In this document: positions 12,995 through 56,852 of the stretch, piece by piece
How positions within the stretch are numbered: the first letter of the stretch is position 1
How the letters are laid out: every line of letters starts with the position of its first letter
From: Desulfosporosinus sp. Sb-LF
GTDB taxonomy: Bacteria; Bacillota; Desulfitobacteriia; Desulfitobacteriales; Desulfitobacteriaceae
NCBI RefSeq assembly: GCF_004766055.1
Contig: NZ_SPQR01000003.1
Span: 124,001 to 188,000 of the forward strand
Reading direction: 5' to 3'
Length of the DNA stretch: 64,000 bases
Program-made: the position numbers and the translations under genes
The notes under the pieces: model-generated
What the model was told of the DNA's origin: nothing
Seen by the model: the letters and a program-made list of their open reading frames with translations, nothing else
Database searches by the model: none

Positions 12995-14257
12995 ATGAGC
13001 GAACTCATCAATAATCATAGTCAGCGAAGAGAAACCTTAAAGCAAATTATTCGAGATATTCACCAGAATAAAAACCCTCAAGAACTTAAAGAACGATTCC
13101 GTGAACTTCTGTCCGATGTCGGCGCCACAGAAATTGCGGCCCTTGAACAAGAACTAATTCAGGAAGGGTTACCGGCAACCGAAATCAAAAGCCTCTGTGA
13201 TGTCCATGTTTCAGTGTTTCAAGATAGTTTAGACCAACAACCAAAATCACAAGAACAGGGAGGGCATCCAGTTCATACGTTTCGCAAAGAAAACCAGGCA
13301 ATCGGACGTGTCGTTCAAGCAATACGACCCATTCTTGAACAGATTCTAAGTATGAATCCGGATGCCAATTTAGAACATAAGCTCAAAGACTGGCAACCTC
13401 TGCACCAACAATTGCTTGAGATCGAGAAGCACTATAGCCGCAAGGAAAATATTCTCTTTGCTTATTTAGAAAAGCATGGAGTAAGTGGCCCTCCAAAAGT
13501 CATGTGGGCAATCCAAGATGACATACGGGCCCAGCTCAAACAAATTTCCCAGGCACTCTCTAATCCATCGAAAGGGAAAAAAGACTTAACGGCACTCATC
13601 CAGACTACTGCACTACCCGCCCTTCAGTCGATTGAAGATCTTATTTATAAAGAAGAGAACATCATGTTTCCCATGAGCACGGAAACCCTCACAGAGGGAG
13701 AATGGGCTGCTGTAGCCGAACAGAGCAATGAAATCGGCTATACCTTAGTTAAGCCGGACTTTGGTTGGATTCCTACCGCACCTCCTGAACCACCCGTCGA
13801 TCCCGGTGCCTTCCCCGTAAATCAGGAACACGGCAAAAGCGTATTTCAGGGACTTCTTCCTTTTCATACTGGCGCCCTGACTCTTGAGCAGATTAGTCTT
13901 ATCTTTAACCATCTTCCAGTTGATATCACGTTTGTGGATGAAAAGGATATTGTCCGTTATTTCTCCTTTGGCAAAGAGCGTATTTTTCAACGAAGCAAGG
14001 CGATTATCGGACGCAATGTTCAAAATTGCCACCCACCTGATAGTGTTCATATTGTCACGAAAATTGTTGGCGATTTCAAAAGCGGTCTACGGGATTTTGC
14101 CGAATTCTGGATTCACATGAATGGTCAGTTTGTCTATATTCAATATTTTGCTCTGCGTGATCCAGACGGGACTTATCGCGGGACGATTGAAGTGACTCAA
14201 GATATTCAGCGAATACAAACCCTCCAAGGAGAAAAACGCATTTATTCTGAAGAATAG
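12995..14257 (+). CDS. DUF438-hemerythrin-PAS domain sensor protein
   Basis: 420 residues. In order: an N-terminal DUF438 region (about 1-90, MSELINNHSQRRETLKQIIRDIHQ), a hemerythrin-like HHE region (about 95-260, with HPVHTFRKENQAI, EKHYSRKENILFAYLEKHG and KEENIMFP supplying His/Glu for a di-iron site), and a C-terminal PAS domain (about 290-415). This three-part layout is a known family in anaerobic Firmicutes, probably sensing oxygen, NO or redox state; there is no output domain. The start is the ATG at 12995, eight bases after AGGGAG, not the upstream TTG. A terminator follows, so it is a single-gene unit. Confidence 0.9.
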   Translation: MSELINNHSQRRETLKQIIRDIHQNKNPQELKERFRELLSDVGATEIAALEQELIQEGLPATEIKSLCDVHVSVFQDSLDQQPKSQEQGGHPVHTFRKENQAIGRVVQAIRPILEQILSMNPDANLEHKLKDWQPLHQQLLEIEKHYSRKENILFAYLEKHGVSGPPKVMWAIQDDIRAQLKQISQALSNPSKGKKDLTALIQTTALPALQSIEDLIYKEENIMFPMSTETLTEGEWAAVAEQSNEIGYTLVKPDFGWIPTAPPEPPVDPGAFPVNQEHGKSVFQGLLPFHTGALTLEQISLIFNHLPVDITFVDEKDIVRYFSFGKERIFQRSKAIIGRNVQNCHPPDSVHIVTKIVGDFKSGLRDFAEFWIHMNGQFVYIQYFALRDPDGTYRGTIEVTQDIQRIQTLQGEKRIYSEE

Positions 14258-51352: not shown

Positions 51353-53647
51353 TTACAGTTTCTGCAATCCTACAAATACCTTTTCAGGAGTAATCGGTAA
51401 ATGGTTTACTCTGACCCCCACTGCATTATAAATCGCATGGGCAATGGCCGGCGGTGGGGTATTGGCAACCACTTCTCCGATAGATTTCGCTCCAAAAGGC
51501 CCCGAGGGTTCAAAGCTCTCTTCAAACTCTATCCGCACTTTCCCGACATCCTTGCGACACGGGATTTTATACTGCATAAAGGAGTTCGTAGCCATTTTGC
51601 CAAACTCATTATAGTTTACATCTTCGTAGAGGGCCATCCCTATTCCCTGGACAATCCCACCTTCGGCCTGAATGCGGGCTAAATTAGGATTAATCACAGT
51701 TCCACAATCTATGATCGCAACATAGTCGATCAAGTCTATTTTTCCAGTCTCTTGATCAACTTCTACCTCCGCAAAGCCTGCTACATAGGGCGGAGGGGAA
51801 ATTTCGCTTCCATGGGTTGCATAACCAACGAGCTGGAGCTTTCCCGTACCCAGTATGGTAAGCTCTGCTAGTTTGGCAAAACTCATCTCTTGATCCCCAT
51901 TAACCGTGCGAACTGCCATTTCATGCAGTTCGACGTCCTCCGAAGAAACCCCTAAAAACGTCGCACCCTGTTCCAGAATCTTCTTTCTCAATTCCTCCGC
52001 TGCCTTTACAACCGCAGACCCCGCTAAATAGGTCGTACTTGAGGCATAAGACCCAGGATCATAAGGAGAAGTATCGGTATCCCCGGCGTTTACAATTATC
52101 ATCTCCATCGGAATCTCCAAAATCTCCGCAGCCATCTGACTGAGGATCGTATCACATCCAGTTCCCATGTCCGTTGCTCCAATGAGAAGGGTAAAATATC
52201 CATCATCGTTTAATCTAATTTCAGCGGATGCAGTACCGATATTCGCAATCCCTGAGCCCTGCATCGTAATCGCCATTCCCACAGCTCTTATTTTTTTGTG
52301 ACCGATCGCTCGTCGCGGGAATTTTTCCTTCCAGCCAATCAGCTCTTTACCCTTGACTATACATTGATCTAAAGACGAGCTTCCCAGCAGAACTCCTTGA
52401 CCGGTCAGAAAGGTTTCTCCGACTTTGCTGATATTTTTTAAGCGAATCTCAGTCGGATCCATATTTAATCGTTTTGCTAACAAATTAACTGTCGATTCTA
52501 AGGCAAACGTTCCTTGAGTAGCCCCATACCCTCGGAAAGCTCCTGCAGGCATTTTATTCGTATACACGGCATTTCCAGTAAACCGAACCGCTCTCGCTTT
52601 ATTGTAAAGTGGAAGAGTATAATGGCCTACACAACTTAAGACGGTGGAGGCATGTTCCCCATACGCTCCAGTATCAGATAAGACTTGAATATCGATCGCT
52701 CGAATAATCCCTTCCTGATCCGCTCCCAGTTTGACCTTCAATCTCATAGCATGACGGCTGGTCGTACAACTAAACGTTTCTTTTCTATCATAAATGATGA
52801 GGGCGGGTTTTCCAGTCTTCAAGGTTACGATCGCTGCAAAGACATCACCAGCGCCTGTTTGCTTTCCTCCGAAACCGCCGCCGATTCTGGGCTTGATTAC
52901 CCTAATCTTACCCGCGGAAATCTGCAAAGCCCTCGCTAACTGTCTTTTAATATGAAAAGGAACCTGAGTAGAGCTGACCACAACTAGCCTTCCAGTGTGA
53001 TCAAGGTAGGTAAAAGCGCGGTACGTTTCCATCATGGCATGAGCCTGAGCTTGCGGATAATAAACATCCTCTACTACCACGGAGCAACGCTCAAATTCTT
53101 CCTCAACATCTCCTACTGCTTCGTAGTAAGAGGAGGCAATATTTTTTTCCTTATCTAGTCCAATATCGAAATTAACGTGCAAATCCTCTTCAGAATGAAT
53201 TATCGAAGAATGTCCCAAGGCCTGCTCAAAATTCAAAACAGGTTCCAAAACTTCATAATCAACTTTAATCTTCTTCATGGCTAAAAGCGCTGTTTTTTCA
53301 TCCACCGCAGCGATAATCGCCACTTCATCTCCCACATACCGAACAATTCGATCAAGAATTAGGCGATCATAGGGAGAGGGCTCGGGATAAGATTGGCCGG
53401 CAAGTGTAAAGCGTTCATTTGGAACATCTTTATAAGTAAGAACGCAATCCACGCCCTCTAACTTCTCTGCCCCAGAGATATCGATCGAGTTAATTTTAGC
53501 ATATGCATGGGGGCTTCTCAGGATTTTCACGACCAACGCATTTGGCATTACTAAATCCTCAGTGTACACTGGTTTGCCGGTAGCGATCATCATACCATCA
53601 ATTTTGCGAATACTTTGACCTACATTTTTTAAACCTAGGCTATTCAT
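51353..53647 (-). CDS. Molybdenum hydroxylase, molybdopterin-binding subunit (xanthine dehydrogenase family)
   Basis: 764 residues. Substrate/cofactor motifs of the xanthine oxidase family are intact: RIGGGFGGKQ, AGAFRGYGATQGTFALES, a Q-loop IGATDMGTGCDT, and near the C-terminus GPFGAKSIGE, which contains the catalytic Glu. Subunit size and order (FAD, 2Fe-2S, Mo) match CoxMSL/XdhBCA-type three-subunit enzymes. Substrate is not defined by sequence: purines, aldehydes or N-heterocycles are all possible. Expression from a guanine-riboswitch leader suggests a purine or purine-linked substrate. It is last gene of the operon, 2 bp from the 2Fe-2S subunit. Confidence 0.92.
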   Translation of the reverse strand: MNSLGLKNVGQSIRKIDGMMIATGKPVYTEDLVMPNALVVKILRSPHAYAKINSIDISGAEKLEGVDCVLTYKDVPNERFTLAGQSYPEPSPYDRLILDRIVRYVGDEVAIIAAVDEKTALLAMKKIKVDYEVLEPVLNFEQALGHSSIIHSEEDLHVNFDIGLDKEKNIASSYYEAVGDVEEEFERCSVVVEDVYYPQAQAHAMMETYRAFTYLDHTGRLVVVSSTQVPFHIKRQLARALQISAGKIRVIKPRIGGGFGGKQTGAGDVFAAIVTLKTGKPALIIYDRKETFSCTTSRHAMRLKVKLGADQEGIIRAIDIQVLSDTGAYGEHASTVLSCVGHYTLPLYNKARAVRFTGNAVYTNKMPAGAFRGYGATQGTFALESTVNLLAKRLNMDPTEIRLKNISKVGETFLTGQGVLLGSSSLDQCIVKGKELIGWKEKFPRRAIGHKKIRAVGMAITMQGSGIANIGTASAEIRLNDDGYFTLLIGATDMGTGCDTILSQMAAEILEIPMEMIIVNAGDTDTSPYDPGSYASSTTYLAGSAVVKAAEELRKKILEQGATFLGVSSEDVELHEMAVRTVNGDQEMSFAKLAELTILGTGKLQLVGYATHGSEISPPPYVAGFAEVEVDQETGKIDLIDYVAIIDCGTVINPNLARIQAEGGIVQGIGMALYEDVNYNEFGKMATNSFMQYKIPCRKDVGKVRIEFEESFEPSGPFGAKSIGEVVANTPPPAIAHAIYNAVGVRVNHLPITPEKVFVGLQKL

Positions 53648-53649
53648 CC

Positions 53650-54099
53650 CTACTCCACCCCCAGATAGGTCTTAACTGCTCTGAGCTGCCCCATATAGCC
53701 CGTACAACGACACAAGTTACCGGTCAGATAGTGTATTATTTCTTCTTCTGAAGGATTAACCAACTCATTTTTCATGGCCAGCACATTCATGATGAACCCT
53801 GGGCTACAAAAACCACACTGTTCTGCCCCTTCTGCGCTTAGTACTTGGGCAAATTCTTCTGCCGCCTTGGGAACCCCTTCAATAGTTGTGACTTTTTTAC
53901 CGTGAACACGCGAGGAAAGGATTGAACAAGACAGCATAGACTTGCCATCAATCCAGACTGTGCATAGTCCGCAGCAGCTTGTTTCACATGCCTTCTTAAC
54001 ACTAAGCAGACCTTGGGCCCTTAAAGTATCCGCCAGAAATTCACCGTTTGCTACGTCCCAAGTTACTACTTTATCATTAATCGTTACTTCGATTTGCAT
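53650..54099 (-). CDS. Molybdenum hydroxylase, 2Fe-2S subunit
   Basis: 149 residues. A plant-type [2Fe-2S] domain at the N-terminus (CETSCCGLCTVWIDGKSMLSC) and a second cluster in the helical C-terminal domain (GFCSPGFIMNVLA, then NLCRCTGYMGQ) form the normal two-cluster set. It carries electrons between the Mo and FAD subunits. It overlaps the FAD gene by 16 nt and lies 2 bp from the Mo gene, so all three are one operon. Confidence 0.95.
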   Translation of the reverse strand: MQIEVTINDKVVTWDVANGEFLADTLRAQGLLSVKKACETSCCGLCTVWIDGKSMLSCSILSSRVHGKKVTTIEGVPKAAEEFAQVLSAEGAEQCGFCSPGFIMNVLAMKNELVNPSEEEIIHYLTGNLCRCTGYMGQLRAVKTYLGVE

Positions 54100-54887
54100 T
54101 GCAGAACCTCCATTATTCCCCTCTTGACGAGCACTTGGCAGAGAGCCCGGCGATAGTCGGCCGTCCCCCTCATATTTGTGCCAAAGGATAACTCGGCTGC
54201 GGCTTGTTGCGCCGCATCCTCGATCTCCTTGTCTGTTAGGGTTACTGTGGACAGAGTTGTCGAAGCTTTCTTAGCTATTGCCGCTCTTCTCGGTCTTGCC
54301 CCCACAACGATTGTCCATCGATCATCAAGCATTGAAACTGCAACATTTAAGATCGGATAGTCACTGGCCGAATTTCTAAAGCTCTGGTAATTGGCTAGAC
54401 GCTTGTTTTTCTTAATCCATAGTCTCTCTAATATGTCTTTTCCGTAGGGTTTGCTTAAAAAGTCAATTAAGGGCATTCTCCCATTCTTGTATAACTCGAC
54501 TTCCGTTTCTAACGCTAATAAAGCCGTGATCAAATCGGAAAAACCGTATTTAGAAAAAACCGAAGCGCCCACAGTAACTCCGTTTCTAAATTGCACTCCG
54601 ATAATATTTTCAACCGATTTGGATAGCACCCCATTGAAATGCTCTCTCAACATCGTATTGGTTTCAATCTCCCTTAGACTTGTCATAGCCCCAATCTCAA
54701 TGAAATCATCCTGTTCTTCGATATAGCTAAGCTTAAGGTCGGAAAGGTCAATCGCTGTACCAATTCGTTTGGAACCCATTTTCAAAAAAGCACACCCACC
54801 AAGAATTGTATTGTTTCTTTTTTTAGAAAGAACCTGATATGCTTCATCTAGGCTATTCGGTTGAACTAAATCAAGTACTGTAAACAC
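54084..54887 (-). CDS. Molybdenum hydroxylase, FAD-binding subunit
   Basis: 267 residues, CoxM/XdhB type. FAD motifs are degenerate but recognisable: TILGGCAFLKMGSKRIG near residue 28 and IGVQFRNGVTVGASVFSKYGFSDL near residue 95. The C-terminal CO-dehydrogenase-like domain (GTADYRRALCQVLVKRGI) is present. The start is GTG behind AGGAGGGG. It passes electrons to NAD or another carrier. It is the first gene after the riboswitch leader at 54921-55255. Confidence 0.9.
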   Translation of the reverse strand: MFTVLDLVQPNSLDEAYQVLSKKRNNTILGGCAFLKMGSKRIGTAIDLSDLKLSYIEEQDDFIEIGAMTSLREIETNTMLREHFNGVLSKSVENIIGVQFRNGVTVGASVFSKYGFSDLITALLALETEVELYKNGRMPLIDFLSKPYGKDILERLWIKKNKRLANYQSFRNSASDYPILNVAVSMLDDRWTIVVGARPRRAAIAKKASTTLSTVTLTDKEIEDAAQQAAAELSFGTNMRGTADYRRALCQVLVKRGIMEVLQCKSK

Positions 54888-54920: not shown

Positions 54921-54987
54921 AAAAAAACAAACCCAGGCGAACAGTTTTCAACTCAAAAAACGCGAGAGAAATCTGTCAGCCTGGGTT
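54921..54987 (-). terminator. Riboswitch-linked terminator, copy 1
   Basis: Arms AACCCAGGC / GCCTGGGTT enclosing inner pairs (ACAG/CTGT), with a TGTTTTTTT tract on the reverse strand, about 30 bp before the FAD-subunit gene. Part of the expression platform of the aptamer at 55087-55155. Its 3' arm contains TTCGC, complementary to GCGAA at the aptamer's 3' end, giving a simple anti-terminator. Confidence 0.8.
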
Positions 54988-55005
54988 TTATCCACGACTA
55001 ACCAA

Positions 55006-55044
55006 CCACTAAAAACTTCTACTTCTCAAGCCGAAGTTGAGTGG
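55006..55044 (-). promoter_or_regulatory. Extra hairpin inside leader copy 1
   Basis: Outer arms CCACT / AGTGG and inner CTCAA / TTGAG form a stem present only in copy 1. It accounts for the longer aptamer-to-terminator distance (about 99 nt against 27 nt in copy 2). Confidence 0.45.
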
Positions 55045-55086
55045 CGATTCTGCATCACTTGGATTTTTTACCCTAGGTACACTTTC

Positions 55087-55155
55087 GCTCATAGTCGGAC
55101 CATTTACGGCAGTCCGGTAGAAACTTGCAGACCTTATCTCTGCTACTATATGAAC
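55087..55155 (-). ncRNA. Guanine-type purine riboswitch aptamer, copy 1 (upstream of Mo-hydroxylase operon)
   Basis: Reverse strand shows P1 (GTTCATA / TATGAGC), P2 (GCAGA-loop-TCTGC) with core GTTTCTACC, P3 (CCGGACT / GGTCCG) with core CCGTAAAT, and the 3' core CCGACTATG. The base that sets specificity is C, as in guanine-binding members (adenine switches have U). A sigma-A promoter precedes it and an intrinsic terminator follows, so ligand binding should lower expression of the molybdenum hydroxylase genes. All core positions look canonical. Confidence 0.93.
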
Positions 55156-55179
55156 ACAATATTCGTTTGCCTTGATTTC

Positions 55180-55208
55180 ATTTTACAAGGAATTCCGACA
55201 TAGGTCAA
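55180..55208 (-). promoter_or_regulatory. Sigma-A promoter of the Mo-hydroxylase leader
   Basis: Reverse strand TTGACC (55208-55203), 17 nt spacer, TAAAAT (55185-55180). Start near 55173, just ahead of the aptamer. Confidence 0.8.
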
Positions 55209-55213
55209 CAGTT

Positions 55214-55255
55214 TTTTCGAACGTTCACCGTTTAAATCTGTTAATCGTTCGACTT
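55214..55255. promoter_or_regulatory. PurR-box-like inverted pair, copy 1
   Basis: CGAACG and CGTTCG in inverted orientation, with 24 nt between CGAAC and GTTCG, immediately upstream of the -35. Geometry and position match the Bacillus PurR operator (PurBox pair) that lies before a riboswitch leader in the pur operon. The binding protein in this host is inferred. Confidence 0.65.
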
Positions 55256-55350
55256 AAAACGTAACAAGACTGCAAGCATATACTCGCAGCCTTGGTACGT
55301 AACGTTATATAAGGTATCCCATGATTATCGTAAATCACGAATTTTTCAAC

Positions 55351-56514
55351 TTAAACTGAATGATATACTTTCTTAAACTCTTCGACCGCTGCTTCCATGT
55401 TGGCTTCAAGTCCCATTTCCTTAAGAGTTTCTCCGACGAGTTCGATTGCTTTTACAAACATCTCTTCGGTGACATTCCCCATATGGCCGATCCGAAAAGC
55501 CTTCCCTGCTAAAGAAGCCAAAGCACCAGCGATCACCATGCCTTTAGCTGCTAACCGGGAACGGAACTCCACATCATTGACACCTTCTGGATAGACTATA
55601 CAACTCAAGGTAGGAGCCGCAGCCTCCTCAGCCGCCAAAGGTTTCATTCCATAAACTTTCAATCCTGCTCTCACGGCTTGACCTAAAGCAGCATGGCGCC
55701 GGTAACGGTTATTCAGCCCTTCTGCCATAACAATTTCCATACCTTTATTAAAGGCATAGATCATATTAACCGGAGGAGTTGCGAAGTATTTGCCCGGATC
55801 ATTCATAATTGAAATCCAATTTTTAATATCCAAATAATACCCTGGGACTTTAGCCATCGCTTCACGAGCAGCCAAAGCCTTCGGACCAAATGCCACTATA
55901 CCGAGTCCAGGCGGAACCCCGATCGCTTTTTGGGAGCCTGTTAACACCACATCCAATTTGTAGTCAGGGTGTCCGTAGGTTTTCTGCATATCTTCATCTA
56001 TCGCTGCAGCCGCACAAACTCCATCGAGAATAAAAAGCGCCCCTGCCTTTTTAACAACCGGAATCAGTTCTTCTATATGAGCCATAACCCCAGTCGAAGT
56101 ATCAACATGAGTTACAGTTACAGCCTTAAAGCCACCTTCAGCCAACTTTTCTTCGACCAGTTCCTTCTGGATATGTTTTCCCCACTCTGCCTGAAGAGAC
56201 TCTACTTGGATTCCAAAAGCCTTAGCTATCGGGATAAAGCGGTCGCCAAAATAGCCATGACTTATGACCAGTAACTTTTCCCCTGGAGCGACAGTATTGA
56301 TAAGCGCCATTTCCATAGCTAGGGTCCCTGAGCCAGCCACGACAAAAACCTCTCCATCCGTGTTAAATAACCGCTTGGTTAAAGAGAGGCTGTTTTTAAA
56401 AATCTTAACAACTCGAGGATCAGTGTGCGCGTAAGTTTCACTAGCTAACGCTTCATAAATTTCATCCACAACGGGTGTAGGCCCTGGGATGAGTAACATT
56501 TCCTTATTAGGCAT
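55351..56514 (-). CDS. PLP aminotransferase, alanine/serine/ureidoglycine-glyoxylate type (AGXT/PucG-like)
   Basis: 387 residues from the ATG at 56514, seven bases after AGGAGG. Fold-type I class V aminotransferase: N-terminal LIPGPTPVVDEIYEAL, VVAGSGTLAMEMAL, the PLP-lysine in VLTGSQKAIGVPPGLG, and the C-terminal AFRIGHMGNVTEEM. The family makes glycine from glyoxylate using alanine, serine or (S)-ureidoglycine as amino donor. Sequence alone does not decide among them. Purine-responsive control (see the leader at 56594-56852) fits either glycine supply for purine synthesis or handling of ureidoglycine. It reads toward the Mo-hydroxylase operon but has a separate leader. Confidence 0.88.
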   Translation of the reverse strand: MPNKEMLLIPGPTPVVDEIYEALASETYAHTDPRVVKIFKNSLSLTKRLFNTDGEVFVVAGSGTLAMEMALINTVAPGEKLLVISHGYFGDRFIPIAKAFGIQVESLQAEWGKHIQKELVEEKLAEGGFKAVTVTHVDTSTGVMAHIEELIPVVKKAGALFILDGVCAAAAIDEDMQKTYGHPDYKLDVVLTGSQKAIGVPPGLGIVAFGPKALAAREAMAKVPGYYLDIKNWISIMNDPGKYFATPPVNMIYAFNKGMEIVMAEGLNNRYRRHAALGQAVRAGLKVYGMKPLAAEEAAAPTLSCIVYPEGVNDVEFRSRLAAKGMVIAGALASLAGKAFRIGHMGNVTEEMFVKAIELVGETLKEMGLEANMEAAVEEFKKVYHSV

Positions 56515-56593
56515 ATGGTTTCCTCCTTCTTCCAACCCTTTTTGAGTATCTCCCGATGTTCATATAATAACAAAATAACGCTATACAAGTTGT

Positions 56594-56659
56594 CCAAAAA
56601 ACAATACCCAAGCGAAAGATTTCAACTCAAATGAACGAGAGAAATCTACCCGCCTGGGT
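56594..56659 (-). terminator. Riboswitch-linked terminator, copy 2
   Basis: Arms ACCCAAGCG / CGCCTGGGT plus inner AGATTTC / GAAATCT, with a TTGTTTTTT tract on the reverse strand. Its 3' arm contains TTTCGCT, the exact complement of AGCGAAA at the aptamer's 3' end, a ready anti-terminator. It lies about 80 bp before the aminotransferase gene. Confidence 0.82.
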
Positions 56660-56686
56660 TTTATCCCCGAGGTGTAATCCAATTTC

Positions 56687-56755
56687 GCTCATAGTCGGAC
56701 CATTTACGGCAGCCCGGTAGAAACTTGCAGACCTTATCTCTGCTACTATATGAAC
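56687..56755 (-). ncRNA. Guanine-type purine riboswitch aptamer, copy 2 (upstream of aminotransferase)
   Basis: Same design as copy 1: P1 (GTTCATA / TATGAGC), core GTTTCTACC, CCGTAAAT and CCGACTATG, with C at the specificity position. It lies exactly 1600 bp from copy 1, and the P2/P1 sequences are identical over long stretches. It is preceded by its own promoter and operator and followed by a terminator close to the aptamer. Predicted effect: repression of the aminotransferase gene when guanine is high. Confidence 0.93.
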
Positions 56756-56779
56756 TCTATCTTCGCATGTCTGAGTTAT

Positions 56780-56808
56780 ATATTACAAGAAATTACGACA
56801 ATGGTCAA
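56780..56808 (-). promoter_or_regulatory. Sigma-A promoter of the aminotransferase leader
   Basis: Reverse strand TTGACC (56808-56803), 17 nt spacer, TAATAT (56785-56780). Start near 56773. Same layout as the copy 1 promoter. Confidence 0.8.
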
Positions 56809-56814
56809 CTCTTT

Positions 56815-56852
56815 GTCGAACGTTTTTTGATTTAAATCAAAAATCATTCGAC
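56815..56852. promoter_or_regulatory. PurR-box-like palindrome, copy 2
   Basis: A 38 bp near-perfect palindrome: GTCGAACG and CATTCGAC at the ends and a perfect TTTTTGATTTAAATCAAAAA core. It lies directly upstream of the -35 box. Half-site and spacing agree with copy 1. Confidence 0.68.

Follow-up and report, generated by a model that had tools for sequence, protein, structure and literature searches.

Two related pur-type leaders with PurBox pairs and guanine-type aptamers precede an aminotransferase gene and a molybdenum hydroxylase operon in Desulfosporosinus

In Bacillus subtilis, PurR binds at the pur operon, xpt-pbuX, pbuG, purA and glyA through PurBoxes with a central CGAA/TTCG and a spacer of 16-17 bp, and its derepression serves purine synthesis and salvage, not degradation (PMC8789054). 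The B. subtilis pur operon and xpt-pbuX leaders combine a PurBox pair just upstream of the -35 box, a guanine-I aptamer and a downstream terminator in an OFF anatomy. The two leaders described here share this organization, but they head an aminotransferase gene and a molybdenum (Mo) hydroxylase operon, in a sulfate-reducing clostridium. The likeness to xpt-pbuX goes further in two relatives (G034 and G036), where such a leader heads pbuX itself. PurR control of glyA (PMC8789054) likewise brings a glycine/one-carbon gene into the regulon, whereas here the gene encodes an aminotransferase and is also preceded by a guanine aptamer. Xanthine-II and guanine-II riboswitches are built on the same purine aptamer scaffold and have xanthine dehydrogenase among their targets (PMC9295807); these are predicted to be ON switches with altered cores, in contrast with the standard guanine-I cores and OFF anatomy of our leaders. 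The control module is thus of a known kind, and the aminotransferase and Mo hydroxylase genes are new targets. In a partial literature search no paper was found linking a standard guanine riboswitch to either gene, and the combination of guanine riboswitch and xanthine dehydrogenase (XDH) returned only PMC9295807.

The window, i.e. the whole stretch of DNA that was analysed, comprises 64,000 nucleotides of Desulfosporosinus sp. Sb-LF, whose nearest named relatives are Desulfosporosinus. On its reverse strand, between 54.9 and 56.9 kb, two leaders show the same order of PurBox pair, promoter, aptamer and terminator. We consider it probable that they are duplicated pur-type control modules, placing genes for purine salvage or supply in the PurR/guanine regulon. 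The features are as follows:

56817..56850 (-): PurBox pair 1, CGAAT-N24-GTTCG, upstream of the aminotransferase gene (sequence reading, genus conservation)
56780..56808 (-): promoter 1, TTGACC-N17-TAATAT (spacing the same in relatives' leaders)
56672..56773 (-): guanine-type aptamer 1 (RF00167, 76.6 bits, E 7e-12)
56596..56659 (-): intrinsic terminator 1, hairpin of about -28 to -29 kcal/mol plus U tract
55351..56514 (-): class-V aminotransferase, AGXT/serine-glyoxylate-like, 387 aa
55218..55251 (-): PurBox pair 2, CGAAC-N24-GTTCG, upstream of the Mo hydroxylase operon
55180..55208 (-): promoter 2, TTGACC-N17-TAAAAT (spacing the same in relatives' leaders)
55072..55173 (-): guanine-type aptamer 2 (RF00167, 80.3 bits, E 8.8e-13)
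54921..54988 (-): intrinsic terminator 2, hairpin of about -28 to -29 kcal/mol plus U tract
54084..54887 (-): moFAD, FAD-binding subunit of a xanthine-dehydrogenase-family enzyme
53650..54099 (-): moFeS, [2Fe-2S] subunit
51353..53647 (-): moMo, molybdopterin-binding subunit (nearest NCBIfam model XdhA_XDHase, score under cut-off)

An earlier note on this DNA had described the two leaders, and their coordinates, element order and 1600-bp offset of aptamers and promoters are all correct. The -35 boxes TTGACC lie at 55208-55203 and 56808-56803, and the U tracts of the terminators end at 54921 and 56596. For the operators the offset is 1599 bp, since the spacing between operator and promoter differs by 1 nt between the leaders: the inverted CGAAY-N24-GTTCG pair sits 8-9 nt upstream of the promoter in each. 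The operator CGAAC-N24-GTTCG, which had been assigned to both, holds for pair 2, while the upstream arm of pair 1 reads CGAAT, one base off. The covariance-model scan proposed in the same note matched both aptamers to the Rfam purine model over its full length (positions 1-102), with scores above the gathering score of 37. U51 and C74 are kept in both cores, which are therefore of the guanine and not the adenine type; the core reads as GUUUCUACC and GACUA in both, i.e. guanine-I, the class shared by the aminotransferase, moFAD and pur leaders.

A PurR of the B. subtilis type, for which a genome search had been suggested, is encoded in the genome (TIGR01743, 323.8 bits with a cut-off of 258.7). 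In both leaders the inverted CGAA/TTCG boxes stand at a fixed spacing beside the promoter, in agreement with the spacing in PMC8789054. Since the exact pattern CGAAY-N24-RTTCG barely exceeds its reversed control (16 sites against 11 genome-wide) and is weak evidence by itself, the extended form CGAAYRWT-N18-AWYRTTCG was adopted. It gives only 4 sites in the 4.27 Mb genome and 0 in the control, a result that is partly circular as the pattern was tuned on these same sites; its independent weight therefore comes from the genes that the sites precede and from their conservation. The four sites are those of the pur operon (L001), of the purB-purA group (L025) and of the two window leaders. At L025 (G000:C2:283606-283639, about 5607 in the locus) the PurBox pair has no aptamer and is followed by a gene for a FAD-dependent protein and then by purB- and purA-like genes. 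Purine aptamers are also four in number: those of the window leaders, that of purE and that of a second XDH operon. The architecture of the Bacillus pur operon leader, with which the window leaders had been compared, is indeed present, and both are homologs of the leader that precedes this genome's own pur operon. Chance is excluded as an origin of the leaders by the Rfam E-values, the extended PurBox counts and the genus-wide conservation.

The direction of the switch was read from the position of the terminator. Where one was found, it follows the aptamer in nearly all leaders of the aminotransferase, moFAD and pur classes, and its hairpin can coexist with the aptamer in these three classes. 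Because automatic detection missed the hairpin or put it in the wrong place in about ten leaders, statements per class rest on the majority and on a motif count. The P1 3' strand and the bases that follow (TGAGCGAAA) complement TTTC-N-CTC in the terminator 5' arm with one mismatch, and the complementary motif (TTTC or TTC) occurs in 62/62 leaders of the three classes; this complement is nearly invariant, so covariation gives no proof of the pairing, and z-scores of the antiterminator duplex are weak. Removal of the antiterminator by a guanine-stabilised P1 would make an OFF switch, and the anatomy predicts, as in the pur leader, a shut-off when guanine is abundant, in line with what had been proposed. 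By analogy with B. subtilis, PurR bound at the PurBox pair would keep each promoter repressed except at high PRPP. Transcripts that are started would fold the guanine-I aptamer, in which bound guanine would stabilise P1 and keep its 3' strand (UGAGCGAAA) off the terminator 5' arm (UUUC-N-CUC); the terminator would then form and transcription would end. Purine shortage would then be the condition under which the aminotransferase and the Mo hydroxylase with its three subunits are made.

The comparison within the genus covered 30 genomes. The Mo subunit has an ortholog of at least 77% identity in 27 of the 30, and where upstream DNA is visible an exact PurBox lies directly ahead of moFAD in 24/26 genomes and an aptamer in 22/26. 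The adjacent aminotransferase gene is found in 13 genomes, counting G023, whose contig ends inside the gene, and PurBox and aptamer accompany it in 13/13. Viewed from the aptamers, a PurBox precedes those of purE in 26/27 leaders, of the aminotransferase in 13/13, of moFAD in 21/22 and of pbuX in 2/2. The 17-nt promoter spacer is kept in relatives' leaders, and P2 and P3 show paired changes, with several standard pair types per position (62 leaders). Three moFAD leaders are without aptamer (G005, G016 and G027; L131, L117 and L128); promoter, terminator and PurBox are kept, the PurBox being degenerate in G005, and a bare terminator is left ahead of the operon in all three. Part of the moFAD leader of G019 reads N. 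In G022 and G029 (L062, L174), a guanine-type aptamer without PurBox stands ahead of genes for a GntR-type regulator and an adenine-deaminase-like protein.

A tree of 68 leaders separates those of the aminotransferase and moFAD from the pur leaders by a supported branch (95/100). The two window leaders are thus placed as sisters relative to the pur leaders, which supports the duplication previously suggested. A recent duplication within this genome was rejected because the aminotransferase leaders of many species group together. The spacing between the aptamers is 1765-4596 bp in relatives and 1600 bp here, and with such a range the exact figure is incidental. Trees of the aminotransferase and Mo-subunit genes are compatible with two histories: the adjacent copy and its leader were acquired once, long ago, and lost in G008/G025, or they were acquired on two occasions.

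That the two genes became neighbours only once, long ago, is plausible, and this would suit the possibility of a passenger aminotransferase, which would owe its leader to the duplicated control region and have nothing to do with purines. Moreover, seven genus genomes carry the aminotransferase elsewhere without PurBox or aptamer, so that the view that it is always under this control was rejected. Several genus genomes lack it. We nevertheless regard a passenger as unlikely: drift would erode a leader of no use, whereas PurBox, promoter and aptamer are kept in all 13 adjacent copies and the stems have diverged yet remain paired.

The moFAD-FeS-Mo genes encode a three-subunit enzyme of the xanthine-dehydrogenase family with the family-level domains present; the Mo subunit falls under every specific NCBIfam cut-off, XdhA_XDHase (NF043082) scoring 647.2 bits against 780. 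Relatives outside the genus suggest its role. In G036 and G034, a PurBox and a guanine aptamer head pbuX (570 and 576 bits, cut-off 414), YqeC, a MocA-like protein and then moFAD-FeS-Mo, which in G034 is preceded also by XdhC and YqeB; the operon mates in two other genera are thus functions of xanthine uptake and Mo-cofactor maturation. A PurBox alone stands upstream of moFAD in G031 and in G047, the latter of another family, which suggests that the operon came under PurR earlier, or in more lineages, than under the riboswitch. Since pbuX is an operon mate elsewhere and xanthine phosphoribosyltransferase (XPRT) is encoded in the genome, salvage of purine bases is favoured for the Mo hydroxylase, which would, for example, convert an imported base to xanthine for XPRT and hence GMP. 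Its mode of action in salvage might be unusual, e.g. reduction of urate, or oxidation of hypoxanthine to give xanthine for GMP. For the aminotransferase, the most likely role would be to make glycine from glyoxylate for purine synthesis, a plausible parallel with PurR control of glyA in B. subtilis. glyA is present in this genome, with no exact PurBox match there, and a glycine supply by the aminotransferase is therefore not obviously needed. The biosynthetic or salvage role that the earlier note had found attractive fits the arrangement seen in relatives, where pbuX, maturation genes and the moFAD operon follow a PurBox and an aptamer; for the supply of glycine in particular it is no more than plausible.

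Purine breakdown is the best-known role of this enzyme family, and the NCBIfam neighbours of the Mo subunit are XDH models. The operon could then encode a catabolic xanthine dehydrogenase that is held down while guanine lasts, other purines being degraded once guanine is gone (a preference control). This is more doubtful still than a passenger aminotransferase: derepression by PurR serves synthesis and salvage rather than degradation (PMC8789054), pbuX shares the same leader elsewhere, as in xpt-pbuX, and purine catabolism has a cluster to itself in this genome, in which other XDH, permease and deaminase-like genes stand behind an aptamer of ON anatomy and no PurBox. This setting was assigned from the neighbours of the second XDH operon, which were mostly read by eye (permease, deaminase-like genes, YqeB/YqeC and more XDH genes). 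Its aptamer (G000:C1:527619-527718, + strand; locus L004 1501-1600) is the fourth of the genome, and the terminator, of -35 kcal/mol, starts inside P3. The same overlap with P3 is found in all 14 variant loci computed (XDH2), and it predicts an ON switch. The variant, of which 14 distinct copies were read in the genus, has U instead of A at position 73, P3 closed by a G-C pair, and U51 and C74 as in the standard core, and is preceded by a PurBox in 0/14 leaders; we did not come across it in the main text of PMC9295807.

Another form of aptamer, with U51G and an insertion in J3/1, occurs in three genus genomes (L140 7083-7185, +; L141 8803-8905, -; L142 8090-8193, -). It precedes another XDH gene, as seen for L140 and L141, its terminator overlaps the P1 3' strand (ON-like), and its features resemble those of xanthine-II riboswitches, a variant group reported from Paenibacillus, Propionispira and Clostridium (PMC9295807). 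L140 also contains a molybdenum/tungsten cofactor riboswitch (13979-14132, +; RF01055, 56.7 bits), some 7 kb away from its xanthine-II-like XDH leader.

ON variants of guanine-II and xanthine-II type exist (PMC9295807) and an ON-type variant occurs in the same genome, yet it is very improbable that guanine binding turns on the genes of the two window leaders, as their core residues are guanine-I and, like the genome's pur leader, they have a terminator hairpin that follows the aptamer and can form alongside it. Equally remote is the reading of the aminotransferase as PucG, the ureidoglycine-glyoxylate aminotransferase of purine ring degradation: PucG belongs to the same superfamily and its structure 3isl was matched at 128 bits, but it ranks below Sulfolobus AGXT (192.6 bits), serine-glyoxylate aminotransferase (171.2) and yeast AGX (161.8), the BhcA aspartate-glyoxylate aminotransferase model is also closer (NF045640, 241.4 bits, itself under its cut-off of 650), glycolate-oxidase-looking genes are neighbours in some relatives (by eye), and the control is predicted to be purine-OFF. 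The PucG part of the former label AGXT/PucG-like is not supported.

The preferred reading of salvage or supply can be extended, tentatively and with somewhat less than even confidence, to the genus as a whole: Desulfosporosinus may split its XDH-type enzymes by the sign of the purine riboswitch, with the Mo hydroxylase and the glyoxylate aminotransferase induced by shortage (PurR and guanine OFF) for purine supply, and the paralogs induced by excess via ON variants. Two independent and conserved layers of control are the grounds for placing an enzyme of the XDH family, usually read as one of purine breakdown, in a synthesis and salvage regulon. The leaders would give a direct route to assigning the substrates of the Mo hydroxylase and of the aminotransferase, and the OFF and ON purine riboswitches on the XDH operons of one genome would offer a natural case for testing if the function of an enzyme can be predicted from the logic of its regulation.
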